Shown here in pieces: positions 1 through 19,893 of a stretch of DNA of 33,167 nucleotides. Positions within the stretch are counted from its first letter, which is position 1. Each line of letters starts with the position of its first letter. The position numbers and the translations under genes were made by a program. The notes under the pieces were generated by a model. That model was given only the letters and a program-made list of their open reading frames with translations. It did no database searches and was not told the origin of the DNA. Source of the stretch: a virus; IMG/VR virus record IMGVR_UViG_3300009420_004026, positions 1-33,167 of that record. The stretch is one strand, 5' to 3'.

Positions 1-3000
1 ATACCTTGAATACCTAGGGTACCTTGAGTACCTTGTGTGCCCTGAAAGCCTTGAGTACCTTGAAAGCCTTGAGTACCTTGTATCGCAGTACCTTGCGCGC
101 CTATAATACCTTGAAACCCGATTGGGCCCACAGGACCCGGCACACCGCGTGTGCCCTGCGGTCCTTGCCAACGTGAACCTTGTAAACCCTGGTAACCGAA
201 AAGTCCTTGATTACCTTGTATACCTTGAGCACCCAACGTACCCTGACGGCCCTGTCGTCCTTGAGTACCTTGGTGACCGATAGTACCTTGCCGGCCCTGA
301 GCACCTTGCCGACCCTGACGGCCCTGTCGTCCTTGAGTACCTTGAATACCCTGAGTACCTACTTTACCCTGTATTCCCTGGATACCTTGCATTCCCTGGA
401 TACCTTGTACACCTTGGTTTCCCTGTATACCTTGTATACCTTGAATACCTTGACGGCCTTGAGTACCTTGTAAGCCTTGGACACCTTGGACACCTTGGCT
501 GCCTTGCATGCCCTGAAAGCCTTGGCGGCCTTGGATCCCTTGCCGACCTTGACGACCCCGAATACCCTGAATACCTTGGACGCCTCTAGTACCCTGAATA
601 CCTTGGATACCTTGTTCACCCTGAACACCTTGGACACCTTGCCCAGGTCCACGTAAACCTTGAACGCCTTGAACACCTTGCTCTCCCGTGATACCTTGAG
701 AACCTTCATTTCCAGTACCCTGAATACCCTGACGGCCGTACGATCCTTGAATACCCTGGATACCCTGTTCGCCTGTAATACCCTGCACGCCTTGAATACC
801 CTGAATACCCTGAACACCTTGGACACCTTGAATACCCTGTGGACCGACAATGTTTCCTACATTTAGCCATTCTCCGCCGTTGTCAGGAGTAAAAGTCCAC
901 AAGTCATTTGTTAATTCATCTATAGCAGCATCCCCAGGAACAGCATCTGCAAACGATGTTTCTAGTATTACCTGTGGATCGAAAGTCGGTGCTTGATTAA
1001 CATTTGCCACAGTCCCAAGTATTCTAAACGGGTTACCGGTATTACCTTGAACACCTTGCTCGCCTGTGATACCTTGCATACCTTGAGTACCTTGTATCGC
1101 AGTACCTTGTACGCCTTGAATACCTTGAAAACCTTGAAATCCACGATTTCCAATAATACCTTGGAAACCTTGAGTTCCTTGTATTGCAGTACCCTGGATG
1201 CCTTGTATACCTTGACGACCTTGAAATCCTTGTATACCCTGTCGGCCTTGAATACCCTGTATTCCCTGGATACCTTGCATTCCCTGGATACCTTGTATAC
1301 CCTGAGGCCCAACAATGTCTCCAGTGTTTATCCATTCGGTTCCGTTCCACAACCAAAAATGGTTTAATTCCTCGTCAATTATGCCGTCAGACATACCAGG
1401 TCCGGCGATAGCAGGTCTTTCTGTTGGAGGATTGCCATCTGTTGTCGGACCAAACGCTTCTCTTATTATTTCTTCGGGAGTGCGGGCTGGATAATTAACG
1501 TTTACATCTTCAATAGTTCCTATTATTCTAAACGGATCCCCAGTTTTACCCTGTACACCCTGGCTGCCTTGTAAACCCTGGCTGCCCTGTAAACCCTGGT
1601 ACCCACCGCCACCTTGAATACCCTGAGTGCCTTGAATACCCTGTATACCTTGAAAGCCTTGTAATCCTTGGCCGCCTTGCATGCCTTGGATACCTTGCTC
1701 GCCCTGAATACCTTGAATACCGTCAAAACCTTGTATACCCTGGCGTCCTTGAATGCCTTGTAATCCAATGCCTGTATGACCTTGAACACCCTGCTCTCCT
1801 TGAATACCTTGAACACCCTGGATCCCCTGAATACCTTGGACACCCTGAACACCCTGCGTGCCCTGCGTGCCTTGTGTTCCGAGATTTCCTTGAATACCTT
1901 GCGAGGCCTGGGTACCTTGAATACCTTGTACGCCTTGAATACCTTGTACGCCTTGCATACCTTGGAAACCTTGGACTCCTCTTACAGGACCAACGTTTAC
2001 CCAAACATTGCTGCCCGTGTATGCCCACAGATCGTTTGTCGCTTCGTCAATAACAGTCTGGCCAACTCCCGCAGAAGAAAACGCTGCGTTTAGCAAAGTA
2101 ATTGGGTTGTTAGGTGGATCTGCGTTAACGTCGCTTACCGCTCCAATAATATTCAGAGCGGGCCCGAAAGCACCTTGAAGTCCTTGAGAACCTTGAAGTC
2201 CTTGCTCTCCCATGATACCTTGGACGCCCTGAATACCCTGAATGCCTTGTATGCCTTGTTCACCCTGAATGCCTTGTAAACCCTGTTGGCCAAAGGTACC
2301 TTGGAAACCAACACCAGTTGTACCCTGAGTTCCGATAAAACCTGTAAAGCCCTGGGCTCCAATGATTCCTTGATTTCCTTGTAAACCTTGAAGACCTTGC
2401 GATCCTTGTATTGCAGCTCCTTGAGTACCCTGTATACCTTGATAACCTAAGTTACCTTGAATACCTTGCAAGCCCTGGTTTCCGTAACCAGCTTTACCCT
2501 GTACGCCTTGTATTGCAGTACCTTGTAAACCCTGGGTACCTAAACCGCCAGTTCCTTGAATACCTTGGTCTCCTAGAACACCCTGAATACCCTGAAACCC
2601 TTGTATTCCCTGAATACCTTGGACACCCTGGTTTCCTTGAAGTCCTTGTATTCCTTGTATTCCTTGAAGACCTTGGCCTCCTTGAAGGCCCTGAATACCT
2701 TGAAAACCTTGAATACCTTGAATACCACGGCGCCCCTGTACGCCTTGTATTCCAAACTCACCTATTGTGCCCTGTATACCTTGGATACCTTGCCAACCTT
2801 GAATACCCTGAACACCTTGGACACCTTGCTCAGCAATATTACCTTGAATACCCTGAATACCTTGAAAACCTTGAAAACCTCGACCGTCAATACCTTGGAC
2901 ACCCTGGTTTCCCTGGATACCCTGCGTACCTTGGCCTCCTTGAAAACCTAGTGTACCCTGCGTACCTTGCTCGCCAGTAACTTGAGTACCTTGAGTACCT

Positions 3001-3134
3001 TGAGTACCTTGCATTGTAGTAGAACCGCCGCTGCCGCTTGATCTAACCCAAACGTTAGTAGCTGCGTTGTATGTGAATACTACAGTTCCAATAACATATG
3101 TGTCGCCGTCTGCAGGTGATGTTGGAAATGCCAT
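1..3134 (-). CDS. Giant collagen-like virion protein (3' end outside window)
   Basis: The frame is open from the ATG at 3134 to the window edge, about 1,044 codons without a stop, so the C-terminus is missing. Residues 1-40 form a non-repetitive head (starts [13 protein letters not shown], later [11 protein letters not shown]). Almost everything else is collagen-type triplets, nearly always Gly-x-Gln ([10 protein letters not shown]), in four blocks: about 41-325, 384-530, 610-697 and 765 to the edge. Three related non-collagen inserts separate them (about 325-383, 531-609, 698-764). Each carries an IIG/ILG...VN stretch, an acidic IDE, a W-rich DLW or FWLW motif, and W(V/I/L)N before the next triplets. 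Such repeats in phage fibres form trimeric stalks, so a tail-fibre or other surface role is inferred. The ATG overlaps the upstream stop by one base (TAATG), so translation is probably coupled. I checked the frame at several points across the repeats and found no shift. Confidence 0.9.
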
Positions 3135-3472
3135 TAGAAAATTTCTCCTGGTTTAGTTGGCCAAACGATTGTTTTAGGGAAACCTACTTGACTTGATACA
3201 TCCCTGAGTGCTTGACGATAAGTTGCCCAGGCTTGGCAGTGTGTATTGCTCTTCCACGCTGTATAGCTTCCACCACTCCAGAGCATTGAAGTGCATTTTG
3301 CCCAATCTGCATCAGATGCTAGCAAGAGAGCATCACGTTTTTCTATTGCTTCAAGGTTTAAAACATCAGAATTTTTTGTAATTGCTTCTTCTACATACCC
3401 TGGCCAATCAGCTGGTTTGGCATCATCTGCTACTACAATACGATTACCATCTTTTACAAAAATCTTTGTCAT
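3134..3472 (-). CDS. Phage tail-fibre assembly chaperone-like protein
   Basis: 112 residues. The C-terminal half carries the pattern seen in small phage tail assembly chaperone-like proteins (Phage_tail_APC type): [14 protein letters not shown], then [12 protein letters not shown], then [12 protein letters not shown] close to the end. An unusual insert with two Cys and several Trp (about residues 60-80, [15 protein letters not shown]) sits between the ASD motif and the AWATYRQAL helix. It lies between a glycine-rich adhesin-like gene and the collagen-like gene, and its stop overlaps the next start by one base. This fits a helper for fibre folding or attachment. The family assignment is by motif memory; the exact client protein is unknown. 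Confidence 0.7.
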
Positions 3473-3481
3473 GTTATTCTC

Positions 3482-4417
3482 CTATCCTGCATCATAAACT
3501 ATTCTAATACCAGCAGCAACACCGGCCGGATCAGTCCATATGGCATAGCCAGGGCCCTCGGAGGTGGACACTGCGATTGCTGAGCCCCCGAATGAACCTT
3601 CACCGCCTGCTGTAATGTAATCTGTTACACCAGTTGCTAAGAAGTTGGTGACATCTTCATAAACATTTGGGACACCATTATACGAAGTATCATTTGCGTA
3701 ACCAGAAGTATTAACAGTTATGGTTCCATCAGTACCATTAGCATTCGCTGCTGTTACAGCGGTAGTTGCTTTTCCTATGGCACCACCAGTGCCACCAGAA
3801 AGCGATATTGTCCCGGCACCTACTGTCCAGCTACTGGCAGATGCTGAAGTACCTGTTGAAGTATCAATATTACTTGTTGCCGTTGTCCTGCTGGAGCCAC
3901 CTGCGCCGAAGGTTACTGAGGAACCTTGTAACACAGATACATCAGGCACATAAAAAGAGATTTCACCTCCAGAGCCACCTCTAGTTGCATAAACTTTCCA
4001 GGCGGCACTTATCGCGTTGCTACGATAAACACCGCCACCACCTCCGGAACCACCAGCAGCAAAGAAACGAACCCAGGCGCCGCCTGTTGTTTTATCAAGT
4101 ACAATAGCACCTGAGGTAGAGATTTCCTGAAGTGTTCCATATGCTACATCACCACCGCCACCACCACCGCCAATTACTTCAAGCCACGCGTTTCCATTCC
4201 ATATTACTAGAGAACCGCCACCGCCAGTTGAAGTATCAAACCAGGCATCGCCGACATTCTTTGTAGCAGGTGCCGTCCCTGAAACTGTTGTTTTACTACC
4301 GCTTCCGCCTGATCCACTAATGAACTTATTTGAGGATGCGACGTAAGTCCATACGTTGCCGCTACCATCAGTAAACGTATCACCGTTAACAGCACCTGAT
4401 ACAGGGAAAATAGCCAT
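3482..4417 (-). CDS. Glycine-rich virion/fibre-tip protein
   Basis: 311 residues. The N-terminus (MAIFPVSGAVNGDTFTDG, then VWTYVASSNKF) resembles the head of the collagen-like protein. A second module near residues 45-85 (VGDAWFDTSTGG, IWNGNAWLEV) also occurs in the next gene upstream. It is followed by Gly-rich runs (GGGGGGGD, GGSGGGGGVYRS) and a Ser/Thr/Gly-rich beta-type region. The end, PAGVAAGIRIVYDAG, resembles the RI(I/V)(W/Y) tails of marine T4-like fibre proteins. A surface fibre or adhesin component is inferred from composition and position. The start overlaps the upstream stop by one base, consistent with coupled late translation. Confidence 0.7.
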   Translation of the reverse strand: MAIFPVSGAVNGDTFTDGSGNVWTYVASSNKFISGSGGSGSKTTVSGTAPATKNVGDAWFDTSTGGGGSLVIWNGNAWLEVIGGGGGGGDVAYGTLQEISTSGAIVLDKTTGGAWVRFFAAGGSGGGGGVYRSNAISAAWKVYATRGGSGGEISFYVPDVSVLQGSSVTFGAGGSSRTTATSNIDTSTGTSASASSWTVGAGTISLSGGTGGAIGKATTAVTAANANGTDGTITVNTSGYANDTSYNGVPNVYEDVTNFLATGVTDYITAGGEGSFGGSAIAVSTSEGPGYAIWTDPAGVAAGIRIVYDAG

Positions 4418-5571
4418 TATGGAGTACTCCCGTAAATAGTACCATTATCAGTAAGTGTTATTGCGTTTGATGACGATATCGCTGCGCCGGCGGCACCACC
4501 GCCTGCGTCTGCCGATCCTCCACCTGCAGCACCCCAGCCGCCACCGCCGCCGGCGTTATAACCCGAGCCGCCTTGGCCAGCATTTCCAGCACTACCGCCA
4601 TCTATAATTGTTGTCCCACCCACACCGGGAAGAATACGACCGCCACCACCGCCGCCAGTAGAACCTCTATTTGAACCAGTGCCATCGCCAGTACCACCAC
4701 CGCCGCCGGCTCCTCCACCGTGGCCACCTAGGTAGGTGACAACTTGGTTGCCATCAGCATTGCTGCTAGTGTGTACAACGTCAGCGGCATCACCCCCCGT
4801 TGAGCTCAAAGCGCCGCCACCGCCGCCGCTGCCGCCTGCACCACCACCAGCACCGCCACCACCACCGCCAAAGTTTGTCGCTTCGTCCTCAGACCCGCCA
4901 CCACCGCCACCACCGCCCGCAATGTAAGCTCCTGCATTATTTGTAATAACTATCCCTGAAGCGGTTATATTAATAGCTTGACCGCCTGCCGAGCCAGCCG
5001 TCGCGTTGTTTCCGTTTCTGCCGCCGCCAGCGCCACCTTTACCTATGATGACACCGTTGTTGATAAGTGTCATGCCAACAACATCAAGAATAAGAGCTGG
5101 CTGAGTATTATCATCTGACCAGATCCAAAAATCTGCTGGGATAGTAAGAGTTCCATTATCAGCAGTTACAATCGCTGATGCCCCAGGGTTAACTCCGTTA
5201 GTTGCTGGAACGCTAGTCATAGAAGAAGCATAAAGTGGACCCACACGGTTGGCCAGTCCATTAATATAAGCCCCAGAGGCAGGTGAAACTTCCGCCGCTC
5301 CCTCCGCTTCCTCCTCTTCCTCCTCTTCCGGCGCAGAATTCGCCTGCGCAGCTGCTGGCCCACCTCCAACCGCTTTAATCCAATATGTGCCATTATACAC
5401 AAACAGGCCAGCTTCATTGGTGTCTGAATTATCAAACCAAAGGAATCCTTCTACTGGGTTTTCAGGAGGATTTGGCGAAACTGTTACTGTACCTGAAAGC
5501 GCTTGAAAGTTATCGTCCAGTTCGTCAAAGGTAAGGGCAAATCCCTTGTCGCGCCGTAATATTACACTCAT
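4417..5571 (-). CDS. gp38-like glycine-rich receptor-recognising adhesin (candidate)
   Basis: 384 residues. The N-terminus contains LTFDELDDNFQAL, a motif common at the start of marine phage fibre proteins. A WFDNSDTNEAG...VYNGTYWIKAV module follows (about 45-70), then an acidic run of seven Glu (about 82-88). From about residue 165 to the end, poly-Gly stretches alternate with short motifs of the type INNGVIIGKGGAGG, ITNNAGAYIAGGGG and, at the end, ITLTDNGTIYGS. T-even gp38 adhesins fold such motifs into a polyglycine-II sandwich with receptor-binding loops between the runs. That homology is inferred from pattern, not from an alignment. The 5' end overlaps the upstream gene by four bases (ATGA). 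The antisense strand shows long open frames only because Gly codons read as Pro/Ala. Confidence 0.65.
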   Translation of the reverse strand: MSVILRRDKGFALTFDELDDNFQALSGTVTVSPNPPENPVEGFLWFDNSDTNEAGLFVYNGTYWIKAVGGGPAAAQANSAPEEEEEEEAEGAAEVSPASGAYINGLANRVGPLYASSMTSVPATNGVNPGASAIVTADNGTLTIPADFWIWSDDNTQPALILDVVGMTLINNGVIIGKGGAGGGRNGNNATAGSAGGQAINITASGIVITNNAGAYIAGGGGGGGGSEDEATNFGGGGGGAGGGAGGSGGGGGALSSTGGDAADVVHTSSNADGNQVVTYLGGHGGGAGGGGGTGDGTGSNRGSTGGGGGGRILPGVGGTTIIDGGSAGNAGQGGSGYNAGGGGGWGAAGGGSADAGGGAAGAAISSSNAITLTDNGTIYGSTP

Positions 5572-5828
5572 GTCGTTTCACCTTCATCGCTGTAATACAG
5601 TCCAACGTATGCGGCAAAGAGACCCGCGGTTTCAGGACCGTAAGGTTGGTAACCGGGATTTGGAACTACGTAATCGTCATCTACATAGGAAAAAGCTATT
5701 CTATCTTCTTCGTTAATATCATCAAACACGAATTGGTACGTAAGATCGATCAGACGCTGTTTTTCAACGGGGTCTGTTTCTGCCGCGATTTGAGCAAGAA
5801 GACTTCTATAATTTGGTTTCGTACTCAT
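5568..5828 (-). CDS. Small acidic protein of the virion operon, function unknown
   Basis: 86 residues, acidic and Tyr-rich (FSYVDDDYVVPNPGYQPYGP, ending YYSDEGETT), with a helical N-terminal half (LLAQIAAETDPVEKQRLIDL). I do not recognise the family. It sits between the PAAR-like gene (3 nt gap) and the gp38-like gene (4-nt overlap), so it is co-transcribed from the late promoter at 6159. A structural or assembly role is plausible from position only. Confidence 0.75.
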   Translation of the reverse strand: MSTKPNYRSLLAQIAAETDPVEKQRLIDLTYQFVFDDINEEDRIAFSYVDDDYVVPNPGYQPYGPETAGLFAAYVGLYYSDEGETT

Positions 5829-5831
5829 AAT

Positions 5832-6134
5832 TTATCCACCAGCAAATACTTTACCAGAACCAGCTGATGCTGCATTTGCAGGCCACGTTCCGTGGCCACT
5901 AGTAGAATCTAATTTTCTGTGCACGCCAATACCGTTTATAAAAACTTTAGTAGATGCACCAACTGCTGTGTCACCGCAAGCGGTTTTATCTCCCTTTACG
6001 ATGGCCTTACGTGTCTCAACAAACACTTTTTGTTGTTTTGTTGAATTATATGGAGTTTTGTGAAACGGGTTTGGAGTTGGAGATGCGTGCCCGTAATGGC
6101 GGTCTACTCTATCTCTTACTATTCCTTGTGTCAT
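5832..6134 (-). CDS. PAAR-like baseplate spike-tip protein
   Basis: 100 residues, first gene of the late virion operon. The C-terminal half reads as PAAR-type beta repeats: GDTAVGASTKVFINGIGVHR, then LDSTSGHGTW, ending AGSGKVFAGG. The N-terminus (RVDRHYGHASPTPNPFHKT) contains further His residues. PAAR proteins cap the membrane-piercing spike of contractile tails; T4 gp5.4 is the counterpart. His/Cys metal ligands are typical of the family, and here His76, His84 or N-terminal His could serve. The ATG at 6134 is preceded by an AAGAGG Shine-Dalgarno that lies inside a hairpin arm (see the hairpin entry). Confidence 0.75.
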   Translation of the reverse strand: MTQGIVRDRVDRHYGHASPTPNPFHKTPYNSTKQQKVFVETRKAIVKGDKTACGDTAVGASTKVFINGIGVHRKLDSTSGHGTWPANAASAGSGKVFAGG

Positions 6135-6141
6135 AATATTA

Positions 6142-6175
6142 GCGCCTCTTTTTAATTGTATTTATAAAGAGGCGC
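6142..6175 (-). promoter_or_regulatory. RBS-sequestering hairpin with late promoter in its loop
   Basis: A perfect 10-bp inverted repeat (6142-6151 with 6166-6175) encloses a 14-nt loop. The late box TATAAATA (minus strand, 6159-6166) lies in the loop. The downstream arm holds the AAGAGG Shine-Dalgarno (6145-6150) of the PAAR-like gene. RNA coming from phoH would fold the hairpin and hide the ribosome site. RNA started at the late promoter begins inside the loop, lacks the upstream arm and leaves the site free. This is the arrangement known for T4 gene e and similar genes. The stem is not followed by a U-run, so it is not a convincing intrinsic terminator. Confidence 0.75.
6159..6166 (-). promoter_or_regulatory. 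T4-type late promoter of the virion operon
   Basis: Exact TATAAATA on the minus strand, 24 nt before the ATG of the PAAR-like gene. It heads the operon running from 6134 to the left edge and would be recognised by gp55, which is encoded at 19360-19893. Confidence 0.8.
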
Positions 6176-6185
6176 CATTTTGTAT

Positions 6186-6938
6186 TTAAGCAACTTCTAA
6201 AAATCGTTCTTTTGCAATTATATATTCTTTTACTAACCCAGAACGAACGATATCATCCACTCCAAAATTTATAACTTCAAAAGATGCGATTTGATTAATA
6301 ACTTTTAAAAAGTCGTATAAGCCCGAGGTATCGGCTTTATTTTTAGAAGTAGCTAGGTCGTCTTGTTTAGTGTCTCCGCAAAAAATAATTTTTGACGATT
6401 CGCCAACTCGAGTAATAATAGTATCAAGCTCGTGATAATTCATGGACTGACATTCGTCAACCATTATAATTGAATTATCAAAAGTAAGACCTCTTATATT
6501 TGAAGAAGTTGTAAATCTAATCATGTCCTTTTGCTTAAGTATTTGATATGCATCTTTTCGTGAAAACAAATCATTTACTATATCGATATAAGGCAATTCA
6601 AAAATTGCTTCTTTTTGTTCTAATGTACCTGGGACAAACCCCTGTTCGCGTGTCTGAACTGCAGAACGTATAATGACGACCTTTTCATATTCTCCTTTCT
6701 CTAGTACGTCTTTGAGTGCTAAATATGTAGCACACATTGTTTTACCCGTACCTGCTGTTCCGATGGCGGCAACGTTGTATCCTTCTTGATAAGATTGAAA
6801 TAAATCACCTTGTGTAGGCGTTAATGGTTGTATTTCGCGCATTGCAAACTTCGTGTTTAAAATGCTAACTAAATGATCCATATCTCTTTCTTGTCTAAGC
6901 TTTTCTCTTTTGGATAATCTGCGCTGTTTAGATGCCAT
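6186..6938 (-). CDS. phoH: PhoH-like NTPase
   Basis: 250 residues. Walker A GTAGTGKT lies at 60-67 and Walker B IIMVDE at about 157-162. Between them is the family block FTTSSNIRGLTFDNS (about 142-156), followed by FCGDTKQDD. The N-terminus is strongly basic (RRLSKREKLRQER). PhoH belongs to the Pho regulon in bacteria and is frequent in marine phages; its reaction during infection is not settled, with RNA helicase/NTPase roles proposed. The ATG at 6938 has a strong GGGAGG four bases upstream. It is 40 nt downstream of the FmdB-like gene and probably shares its transcript. It is one of two phosphate-linked genes here, with the permease at 8757-9710. Confidence 0.93.
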   Translation of the reverse strand: MASKQRRLSKREKLRQERDMDHLVSILNTKFAMREIQPLTPTQGDLFQSYQEGYNVAAIGTAGTGKTMCATYLALKDVLEKGEYEKVVIIRSAVQTREQGFVPGTLEQKEAIFELPYIDIVNDLFSRKDAYQILKQKDMIRFTTSSNIRGLTFDNSIIMVDECQSMNYHELDTIITRVGESSKIIFCGDTKQDDLATSKNKADTSGLYDFLKVINQIASFEVINFGVDDIVRSGLVKEYIIAKERFLEVA

Positions 6939-11758: not shown

Positions 11759-12451
11759 TTAATCATTAATTTTAGGAAACAGCATGTCAGTACAAAACTT
11801 GTCTACATCTGCTTCATCTAAACCCAAACTTTTCATTGTGCGAGGAGTGTGTGGATTTTGTTGTTGATTGTGGCAGTAGTAGTTTTGTGCAGCAACAGTT
11901 TCGCTGTATTCACCCTTGCCTGTAAACTCACCAATTTTACTAAAGTAATCACGTAGATTATCTTGTGCTAGCGTGATAATGGCAACTGCTTCCTCTTCTG
12001 AATTTACATTGCCTGCAGCCAACATTTTATCTGTAAAAATATTAGTTGCCCATTCAGGTAATTGCCGTTGTTTTTTAGGAATAAAGTCCGCGACTGATTC
12101 TTTGTATCCTACAATCATAGGATGATCGATACCGCCACTGCTTGCTGAAAAGTCGTGAAAAGCGCCTGTCATTTTATTCTTGCCTGCAATAACGTCAAAG
12201 CCATATATAGGACCATTGTTGTTAAGCACAGGAAAAACGCATACATGCATCATCCACAAACCCTTACTATCGCGAGCGTCTACAACATCAATGTGAGCCC
12301 GCCTAACATTATCATTGCGCCAAACGCGGTTGACCCAAGTATCGTTATTAAAATGAGAAAGACCTAGTTCGTCATACTCTGTTGCGCTTGCATCAAAAAT
12401 ATTAATAATTTCATCTTTGCACTCTATTAGTCTATCCCAAATAACACTCAA
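11759..12451 (-). CDS. pcyX: Ferredoxin-dependent bilin reductase, PcyX-like
   Basis: 230 residues from a TTG start at 12451 (stop codon in frame just upstream; GGGG about 8 nt before). The family pattern is clear: RRAHIDVVDARD, then MMHVCVFP, YGFDVIAG, TGAFHDFSA, a QLPEW...IF segment, and a C-terminal YYCHNQQQNPHTPRTM. These blocks line up in order with cyanobacterial PcyA. His69 and Asp86 match PcyA His88 and Asp105. The PcyA-specific Glu76 is replaced by Asp55, and Asn199 sits where PebS has its second catalytic Asp. Phage PebS lacks the equivalent of His69, so PcyX (biliverdin to phycoerythrobilin, known from marine viral metagenomes) is the best fit. Product and electron donor are inferred. 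Second gene of a late operon; no haem oxygenase is visible in the window. Confidence 0.88.
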   Translation of the reverse strand: MSVIWDRLIECKDEIINIFDASATEYDELGLSHFNNDTWVNRVWRNDNVRRAHIDVVDARDSKGLWMMHVCVFPVLNNNGPIYGFDVIAGKNKMTGAFHDFSASSGGIDHPMIVGYKESVADFIPKKQRQLPEWATNIFTDKMLAAGNVNSEEEAVAIITLAQDNLRDYFSKIGEFTGKGEYSETVAAQNYYCHNQQQNPHTPRTMKSLGLDEADVDKFCTDMLFPKIND

Positions 12452-12473: not shown

Positions 12474-12719
12474 TTAATCGTACCCTCTTACGGCCACTTT
12501 ATCCATATCTTCATTTATAATCTCAGCTTCACGAGCTTTGTACGCTGCTTCAAATCCTACTTCGTGCATATAATTTTCATTATTACCCCAAAGTCTTTTA
12601 AAATATGAATTGTAAGTTTTTTCAACATCTACGTCAGACCACTCTCTATCAATAAGTTTGCCTTTAATCATCCAATTAAATCGGTTAGCTTCTTTACGTA
12701 CGAATGAGCTGCACACCAT
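12474..12719 (-). CDS. Small protein ahead of the bilin reductase, unknown
   Basis: 81 residues, charged, with Trp- and Tyr-rich helices (ANRFNWMIKGKLIDREW, YNSYFKRLWGNNENY). It is first in the late operon (TATAAATA at 12748) with a good AAAGGAG before ATG, and it ends 22 nt before the bilin reductase. It is too short to be a haem oxygenase and shows no iron-sulphur Cys motif, so it is not a ferredoxin. No family recognised. Confidence 0.8.
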   Translation of the reverse strand: MVCSSFVRKEANRFNWMIKGKLIDREWSDVDVEKTYNSYFKRLWGNNENYMHEVGFEAAYKAREAEIINEDMDKVAVRGYD

Positions 12720-12747: not shown

Positions 12748-12755
12748 TATTTATA
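12748..12755 (-). promoter_or_regulatory. Late promoter of the bilin reductase operon
   Basis: Exact TATAAATA on the minus strand, 28 nt before the ATG at 12719. It implies that the operon 12719-11471 is transcribed late. Confidence 0.8.
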
Positions 12756-12779: not shown

Positions 12780-12814
12780 ATGTTATCGCTATCAACACAT
12801 GATAGCGATAACAT
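12780..12814. other. Perfect 14-bp inverted repeat
   Basis: 12780-12793 pairs perfectly with 12801-12814 around a 7-nt loop (core TTATCGCTATC / GATAGCGATAA). It lies between the MazG-like gene and the late promoter at 12748. There is no U-run on either side, so it is either a poor terminator or a protein-binding or processing site. Confidence 0.75.
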
Positions 12815-18866: not shown

Positions 18867-19370
18867 TTAATCCCATAGGTTTTCGTAGAAACGACCAAAC
18901 AATCTAAATCCATCAGTCATTCTGCCTTGATGCGCTATAACACTTTCGCTATCCCATTTGTAATCGTATTCAGATATCCAATCATCTTTGCATTTTTGTT
19001 CAAACGCCCAAATCATTTCGTCTAAAATATCGTCCCACTCTTCTTCGCTTAATTCTTGCGGATAGCTATGCTTTGTTTCTTTTAGTTGTTTAAGCATCGG
19101 CAATATAATTACAGCAAGTGTATCATCCATGCTCCATGTATCCCAGCGATGAATGTGTACTTTTACTTTTTGCGTACGCCTGTCAAACCACAACCAGTTA
19201 AATACGTTGTACACGCTTTGCACTGCGTCTTCAATAGCTTCCCATACGTGATCGCCGTAGTCCCAATAAGCTTCTTCTGGCCAGTGTAAAGATTTGTACT
19301 TTTTATTCATATGACGAGTATGCGCATTACATATTAGTCTATTTGAATAATTCCCTATTTTAACTTTCAT
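18867..19370 (-). CDS. Conserved T4-like phage protein (RWDTWSMDDTLA family), unknown function
   Basis: 167 residues from the ATG at 19370; a TTG at 19391 would extend it but has less support. The motif VKVHIHRWDTWSMDDTLAVI is followed by LPMLKQLKETKHSYP and DEMIWAFEQKC. I recognise these from a conserved marine T4-like protein, whose function is unknown to me. Trp-rich throughout. The start overlaps the end of gene 55 by 11 bases and the stop lies three bases before 47, so it belongs to the recombination/late-sigma operon. Confidence 0.85.
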   Translation of the reverse strand: MKVKIGNYSNRLICNAHTRHMNKKYKSLHWPEEAYWDYGDHVWEAIEDAVQSVYNVFNWLWFDRRTQKVKVHIHRWDTWSMDDTLAVIILPMLKQLKETKHSYPQELSEEEWDDILDEMIWAFEQKCKDDWISEYDYKWDSESVIAHQGRMTDGFRLFGRFYENLWD

Positions 19371-19893
19371 CTTTAGTCTTTTCTTCAACAACTTTTTTTG
19401 GAAGTTTTTTGCTTGCTAATTTTTCTTCATAATCGCTAACGAAATGATTTATATAATCTGCGTTTGTGTTTAAGTGTAATTGTACTTCATTAGATTCATA
19501 TGTTGCGCCCTGTGCAACCATGTTGTGTGAAGATTTAAAGCGAATATACATTTGCTTTTTTTCTTTTTGGATCCTGCGTAAAAACGCGAACCAAATAACT
19601 TGTGTAAAATACGCAAACGGATTTGAAGACTTGTTGTGATCGAAGTTGCCAATGTATAGAAGGCAGTTTTCTATACCGTCCATAATCATATCTTCTTTAT
19701 AAGTGTAGCCTGAGAAGTTTGGTTTTGTAGCAAGACGGTTTGCAATTTTAAAAATGCATTCTCCAATATAAACCGGCACTATAGGTAACTTATCACCCTG
19801 ATTTTCAGCTTCAACGCATCGCTTCTTGTATTCAATTAGCGCGTCTAACAAATCCTTGTTGTTTACATAATTTCTTTTTGCTCTTCTCGCCAT
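19360..19893 (-). CDS. 55: Late-transcription sigma factor gp55
   Basis: 177 residues (T4 gp55: 185). A basic N-terminus (MARRAKRNYVNNKDL) leads into the sigma region 2-like block: YKEDMIMDGIENCLLYIGNF, then NPFAYFTQVIWFAFLRRIQKEKKQ (about 91-114), which binds the TATAAATA box and core RNA polymerase. In T4, gp55 with gp33 and the clamp directs late transcription. The late boxes in this window are its expected targets. The gene appears early-expressed (sigma-70-like elements upstream, AAAAGGAT before the ATG). Confidence 0.92.
   Translation of the reverse strand: MARRAKRNYVNNKDLLDALIEYKKRCVEAENQGDKLPIVPVYIGECIFKIANRLATKPNFSGYTYKEDMIMDGIENCLLYIGNFDHNKSSNPFAYFTQVIWFAFLRRIQKEKKQMYIRFKSSHNMVAQGATYESNEVQLHLNTNADYINHFVSDYEEKLASKKLPKKVVEEKTKDES

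Follow-up and report, generated by a model that had tools for sequence, protein, structure and literature searches.

Considered as a whole, the folding, comparative and control analyses described here suggest that the leader of a PAAR-motif spike-tip gene in the window (the whole 33,167-base stretch analysed, an uncultivated virus record) very probably acts as a two-state time lock on translation, of the type known from T4 gene e. A sequence-only reading of this DNA had proposed a late promoter within a hairpin by which read-through RNA keeps its ribosome site covered, and this is strongly supported by compensatory conservation of the stem, recurrence of the arrangement, a permuted-arm control and the presence of a gp55-type protein. 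RNA derived from phoH that reaches PAAR would carry both arms of the stem, fold and hide the AAGAGG ribosome site. Late in infection a gp55-directed polymerase would start at TATAAATA between the arms (~6153), and the late RNA, being without the 5' arm, would have an open ribosome site from which PAAR is translated. We infer that phoH RNA reads through, that the box works as a late promoter and that the stem blocks ribosomes. The sequence evidence makes a well-supported case that the PAAR lock would belong with the late-promoter hairpins of T4, extending them to a new viral group and a new kind of gene, the junction being laid out as follows:

6186..6938, minus strand: phoH, the upstream gene and presumed source of read-through RNA (PHROG 170, E 3e-77)
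6175-6166, minus strand: 5' arm of the stem, GCGCCTCTTT
6166-6159, minus strand: late-promoter box TATAAATA, in the hairpin loop
~6153, minus strand: predicted start of late transcription, between the arms and 13 nt past the box's first base
6151-6142, minus strand: 3' arm of the stem, AAAGAGGCGC, containing the ribosome site AAGAGG (6150-6145)
6134-6132, minus strand: PAAR ATG
5832..6134, minus strand: PAAR-motif spike-tip gene, 100 aa (Pfam PF05488, E 9.5e-7; PHROG 281)

Coordinates and fold confirm that a perfect 10-bp stem, which grows to 12 bp with one G-U pair, buries the AAGAGG of the PAAR gene between the end of phoH (6186) and the start of PAAR (6134), with the ATG ten bases beyond the AAGAGG of the 3' arm region. 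The 5' arm is predicted to be carried only by RNA entering from phoH. The box lies just upstream of the ribosome site, and its placement in the loop, as first described, holds for seven of its eight bases, the first T doubling as the last base of the 5' arm. T4 late transcription begins 13 nt beyond the box's first base; with this spacing the start would fall at ~6153, between the arms, compared with ~6152 in the earlier reading, and the late RNA would begin AAAAAGAGGCGC. The region 6120-6200 folds at -19.7 kcal/mol, against -9.3 +/- 2.2 in 200 dinucleotide shuffles (z -4.8; 0 of 200 as good), a value computed on the plus strand, with separate minus-strand folds giving the same stem. For the ribosome site the predicted unpaired probability is 0.00 when the RNA reads through and 0.96 when it starts late; the latter becomes 0.63 with 40 nt of coding sequence, and the former stays at 0.00 with 60, 150 or 300 nt of upstream RNA. 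Predictions for the PAAR leaders of two relatives are similar (0.07 read-through versus 0.92 late in G001, 0.07 versus 0.97 in G002). With longer RNA the late openness of the PAAR leaders drops to 0.52-0.85 and read-through values remain at or below 0.07 except in G004, where 0.54 is obtained with 60 nt of upstream RNA and 0.00 with 150 nt, because 60 nt stops short of the outer arm.

What decides the case is that the base pairing of the PAAR lock appears, from its pattern of sequence change, to have been preserved by evolution. Searches of viral contigs with PhoH and PAAR yielded 148 loci (the best 80 of 227, plus 44, plus 24), many of which overlap on one contig across searches, and PAAR lies within 400 nt after phoH in 51 of them, representing 18 distinct intergenic sequences. 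Box, stem and buried ribosome site are present together in five of the 18, and these are exactly the sequences with PhoH identity of at least 82% (82-100%); the other 13 (47-77%) are without the device. Conservation of the stem in related phages, which the sequence-only reading had put forward as a check, is thus found in 5/5 distinct close sequences. Across them 68 of 70 arm cells pair (97%), and 5 of the 14 stem pairs have changed in both partners, as where GCGCC/GGCGC becomes GTGCC/GGCAC or GTACC/GGTAC. A slid-partner control gave 0-2 pairs changed on both sides and 42-62% paired, and the covariation score was reached by 3 of 500 shuffles and the both-sides-changed count by 21 of 500, on a base of only five distinct sequences. 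For this comparison the arms alone were aligned, a whole-leader alignment having put the duplicated relative L128 out of register; L128 was registered by its outer stem, which was our choice. This relative (three contigs, L128-L130) carries a tandem copy, with two boxes within one longer stem. The intergenic region is non-coding, and protein constraint therefore cannot explain the compensatory changes. An AT-rich late promoter lying by coincidence beside a chance inverted repeat might be entertained, considering that the window has 15 inverted repeats of at least 10 nt with arms no more than 60 nt apart, but both-side changes in 5/14 pairs, presence in 5/5 close-relative sequences and the swapped-arm and permuted-arm controls given below contradict it, and this explanation is hardly credible and in practice refuted.

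The distant loci bear on a second explanation, in which the hairpin is a phoH transcription terminator or 3'-end stabiliser and its overlap with the box and ribosome site is accidental. Two of the 13 distant sequences are a bare TAATG junction and most have a hairpin with the ribosome site outside; AATAAATA is found at the phoH end in 2/13. In favour of this explanation, a GC-rich hairpin, partly with T-rich sequence after it, occupies the same place in most distant phoH-PAAR loci. However, the 3' arm lacks a U-run behind it both in the window (GCGCTAATATTATG) and in all four remaining distinct device sequences, the terminator scan is empty at the hairpin, finding no minus-strand terminator-like site between phoH and PAAR, and the ribosome site is inside the hairpin in 5/5 cases here and outside in the distant loci that have one. 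Moreover, the box TATAAATA at PAAR is kept in 5/5 distinct close-relative sequences while the arm sequences change, and we consider the terminator explanation very unlikely. The same phoH-PAAR junction problem is handled differently among these viruses, by a lock in close relatives and by another hairpin or a bare TAATG in distant ones. As for the supply of read-through RNA that the time lock presupposes, phoH and replication genes lie upstream of PAAR on the same strand; a strong terminator is found upstream of phoH at 7258-7233, so that, unless a promoter of its own serves phoH, little early RNA may enter this gene.

By its genes the window virus is of the T4 type and apparently of the marine cyanophage kind. 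Replication genes in the window include DNA polymerase gp43, gp46/47-like SbcC and SbcD, UvsY and a helicase, and the tail tube gene is also encoded. The polymerase comes closest to the Synechococcus and Prochlorococcus myovirus enzymes (~43% identity), and the PAAR protein to its counterparts in Melnitz and HTVC008M (52-54% identity), both listed under Kyanoviridae. The expected reader of TATAAATA is encoded as well:

19360..19893, minus strand: late sigma factor, gp55-type (PHROG 234, E 6.8e-59)

The window contains 10 copies of TATAAATA where 4.0 would be expected, with 1 of 100 shuffles reaching 10, and the looser ATAAATA is not enriched (14 versus 15.4 expected). Two boxes precede the tail tube gene in the window. 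In G001, where the proteins of 10 out of 14 box-linked ORFs of at least 200 aa were scanned, boxes stand ahead of the genes for tail sheath, major head protein, head protease, connector, baseplate wedge and fibre, but a single-strand DNA-binding protein gene and a cytidyltransferase-like gene have one as well.

The arrangement also recurs well outside the close relatives. We searched viral contigs for CCTCTT before the box and AAGAGG after it, with a permuted arm as control, and found 64 stretches with the matching arm versus 6 with the permuted arm (distinct cores 24 versus 4; gene-linked 14 versus 2). The corresponding AAGGAG pattern gave at least 80 stretches versus 10, at least 56 distinct cores versus 6 and at least 39 gene-linked versus 3, with one of the six distinct control cores (L276) itself a device. 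The device arrangement is thus about tenfold commoner than the permuted-arm arrangement in viral contigs. Permuting the box instead of the arm speaks to a third explanation, that the stem does mask the site and that RNase cleavage in the loop, a protein or a small RNA, rather than a new start, opens it, which would leave the box a minor role. An AU-rich loop is a plausible RNase E target, and the available portion of a T4 review describes translation control by RNA-binding proteins as well known (PMC3014915). Against this, 17 of the 27 permuted-box matches also hold TATAAATA, and those without it come to 10 matches, 6 distinct cores and 4 gene-linked, so that matching arms surround 6 distinct cores without TATAAATA versus 24 with it; several of the former carry CTAAATA. 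In another scan the permuted boxes NTAAATAA and NAAATATA, which can overlap real NATAAATA boxes, were dropped as controls. No Rfam family matched at gathering score in the 33167 bases of the window, which also counts against this alternative, and we regard it as highly improbable.

The 53 gene-linked cores correspond to 43 distinct proteins, 40 of which were scanned (all but L054, of the PAAR family, L089 and L252). By our own tally 17/40 are virion, connector or packaging proteins, namely five gp14-like connectors (a family name that we take to be gp14), three terminases, a portal, a hub, two wedges, a tape measure, a fibre hinge, a head-protein relative and two weaker tail-assembly matches. 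Eight of the 40 are endonucleases (homing, endonuclease VII or resolvase-like; one weak), and the remainder comprise one RegA repressor, three families of unknown function and 11 proteins without a match. The RegA-type translation repressor (L275:2253-2698) is preceded by the device arrangement, and as RegA is an early protein in T4 this case does not fit the late-gene rule. On balance we lean towards the view that the late promoter in a hairpin is a common portable cassette of T4-type viruses, arising repeatedly when a late gene falls behind early genes.

Within the clade itself putative devices stand before three unrelated genes, namely the PAAR spike, an 81-aa protein of unknown function and a DUF1127 gene. 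The second of these is weaker in the window:

12762-12756 and 12732-12726, minus strand: arms CCTTTAC and GTAAAGG, over AAGGAG
12748..12755, minus strand: late box of the second device, preceding the 81-aa gene
12474..12719, minus strand: 81-aa gene behind the second device, no PHROG or Pfam match
L207:17602-17856 and L228:6676-6963: phage-borne DUF1127 genes (PF06568) behind the third device

The second device has a 7 bp stem in the window, with a predicted ribosome site openness of 0.22 read-through versus 0.67 late, and the orthologues of its gene in G001 and G002 have 12 and 13 bp stems of unrelated sequence around the box GATAAATA. Its upstream neighbour is MazG-like in the window and, by eye, PstS-like in G001 and G002, and as this neighbour differs the device has stayed with the 81-aa gene. 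Ahead of the second device, at 12780-12814 of the window, lies a palindrome with the sequence ATGTTATCG...CGATAACAT or nearly so, which is also found in G001 and G002 (L226, L215) despite the differing upstream gene. The third device stands before the DUF1127 genes of G001 and G002 with box AATAAATA and stems of 13 and 12 bp; in G001 the late RNA is still predicted to be masked (0.05), which counts against that device. Among 84 gene-linked NATAAATA sites in the window, G001, G002 and G004 (the outer box of G004, 56 nt from the start codon, was found only after the distance limit was widened), stems of at least 10 bp cover the ribosome site at 12, versus 2.2 with swapped upstream arms (maximum 6 in 200), although four of the 12 are AT stems with one or two G-C pairs and carry little weight. 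For stems of at least 12 bp the count is 9 versus 0.5, and for those of at least 7 bp it is a weak 31 versus 21.0, the signal appearing from 9 bp up.

On this reading a means of control established in T4 would operate in marine cyanophage-type viruses too, its base pairing backed by evolutionary evidence. According to the available portion of PMC3014915, read-through RNA of T4 gene e masks the ribosome site and late RNA is without the 5' strand, with a ~100-fold effect, and the earlier statement that T4 uses the device for e and a few others is borne out there (e, soc, 49 and I-TevI). Similar to the window, late TATAAATA boxes in T4 e adjoin the ribosome site and the folded T4 leader shows the same layout; the two-box stem of L128-L130 is reminiscent of its two late boxes. 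However, e encodes lysozyme, whereas the window device would gate a spike gene, and the stem in T4 is the shorter one, measuring 9 bp in the same scan. The T4 soc leader folded here gave no such layout, and that of 49 gave a hairpin with AATAAATA at its edge. The accessible text of PMC2988022 describes a sequestered ribosome site and nearby late promoter for the endonucleases T4 I-TevI, I-TevII, I-TevIII, segB and Aeh1 mobE, and notes that these late genes are carried on polycistronic transcripts of the early or middle period. The T4 soc, 49, I-Tev and segB and Aeh1 mobE cases, late genes on long early or middle transcripts with a sequestered ribosome site, would share this arrangement with ours, but in these T4 and Aeromonas phages the products are a capsid accessory protein, endonuclease VII and homing endonucleases rather than a spike. 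In cyanomyoviruses the late promoter has the same box as the window, being NATAAATA in S-PM2, with g55 in all cyanophages then sequenced, and in the available part of that source (PMC2984593) it is described as a promoter only, without a hairpin. The portions of PMC3037559 and PMC9004378 at hand mention late promoters and phoH and no such hairpin. Among the open-licence papers listed in our searches, no title or abstract opening describes such hairpins for cyanophage-type marine viruses, which is weak evidence of absence. Box and matching arm can be searched for from sequence alone, and the device offers a means of predicting late genes hidden in the early regions of uncultivated phages.

The sequence-only reading had also supposed that the hairpin gates a whole fibre and spike operon, which is supported for PAAR and overstated for the genes downstream, several of which have their own ribosome sites:

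5568..5828, minus strand: 86-aa gene, 3 nt past PAAR, conserved in all close relatives
4417..5571, minus strand: 384-aa gene, ATGA overlap with the preceding gene
3482..4417, minus strand: 311-aa Gly-rich gene, TAATG overlap, own GGGAG site
3134..3472, minus strand: tail assembly chaperone (PF16778, E 1e-14), own AGGAGA site
3..3134, minus strand: collagen-like GxQ-repeat fibre, at least 1044 aa, running off the record, own AGGAG site

The hairpin would directly mask PAAR only, and gating of the downstream genes is possible. Spacings of +3, -4 and -1 nt between the first four genes allow translational coupling, whereas early read-through RNA could be translated at the AGGAG-type sites of the tail assembly and fibre genes, barring coupling or polarity. 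With no other ATAAATA in 1-6158 on either strand, the operon shows no candidate late promoter besides the TATAAATA box, and late mRNA for the fibre genes would most simply come from it. If the downstream fibre genes are affected at all, this would be an indirect effect of coupling, of polarity or just of the supply of late mRNA. The GxQ repeats of the fibre are broken by short globular segments. In Melnitz the PAAR homologue directly follows the baseplate hub gene and stands two small genes ahead of the baseplate wedge genes.

Elsewhere on the minus strand, a TATAAATA box at 7295-7288 is followed ~30 nt downstream by a strong intrinsic terminator before an FmdB-like gene (7295-7233), an arrangement also found in L119, L120 and L124 (with AATAAATA in L128) with differing stem sequences; as it is kept in relatives, a late start there would give an RNA of ~50 nt. 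This box, with AACTTGT/ACAGGTT as arms, looked like a third window device but was rejected because it lies at the end of the upstream gene and has the strong terminator (7258-7233) after it. The sequence TTGACA-17-TATATT, with identical hexamers, occurs at three minus-strand sites (8352-8324, 8710-8682 and 10482-10454), which are probable early promoters. A ferredoxin oxidoreductase-like gene (11759-12451, minus strand; PHROG 7278) lies in the accessory region.
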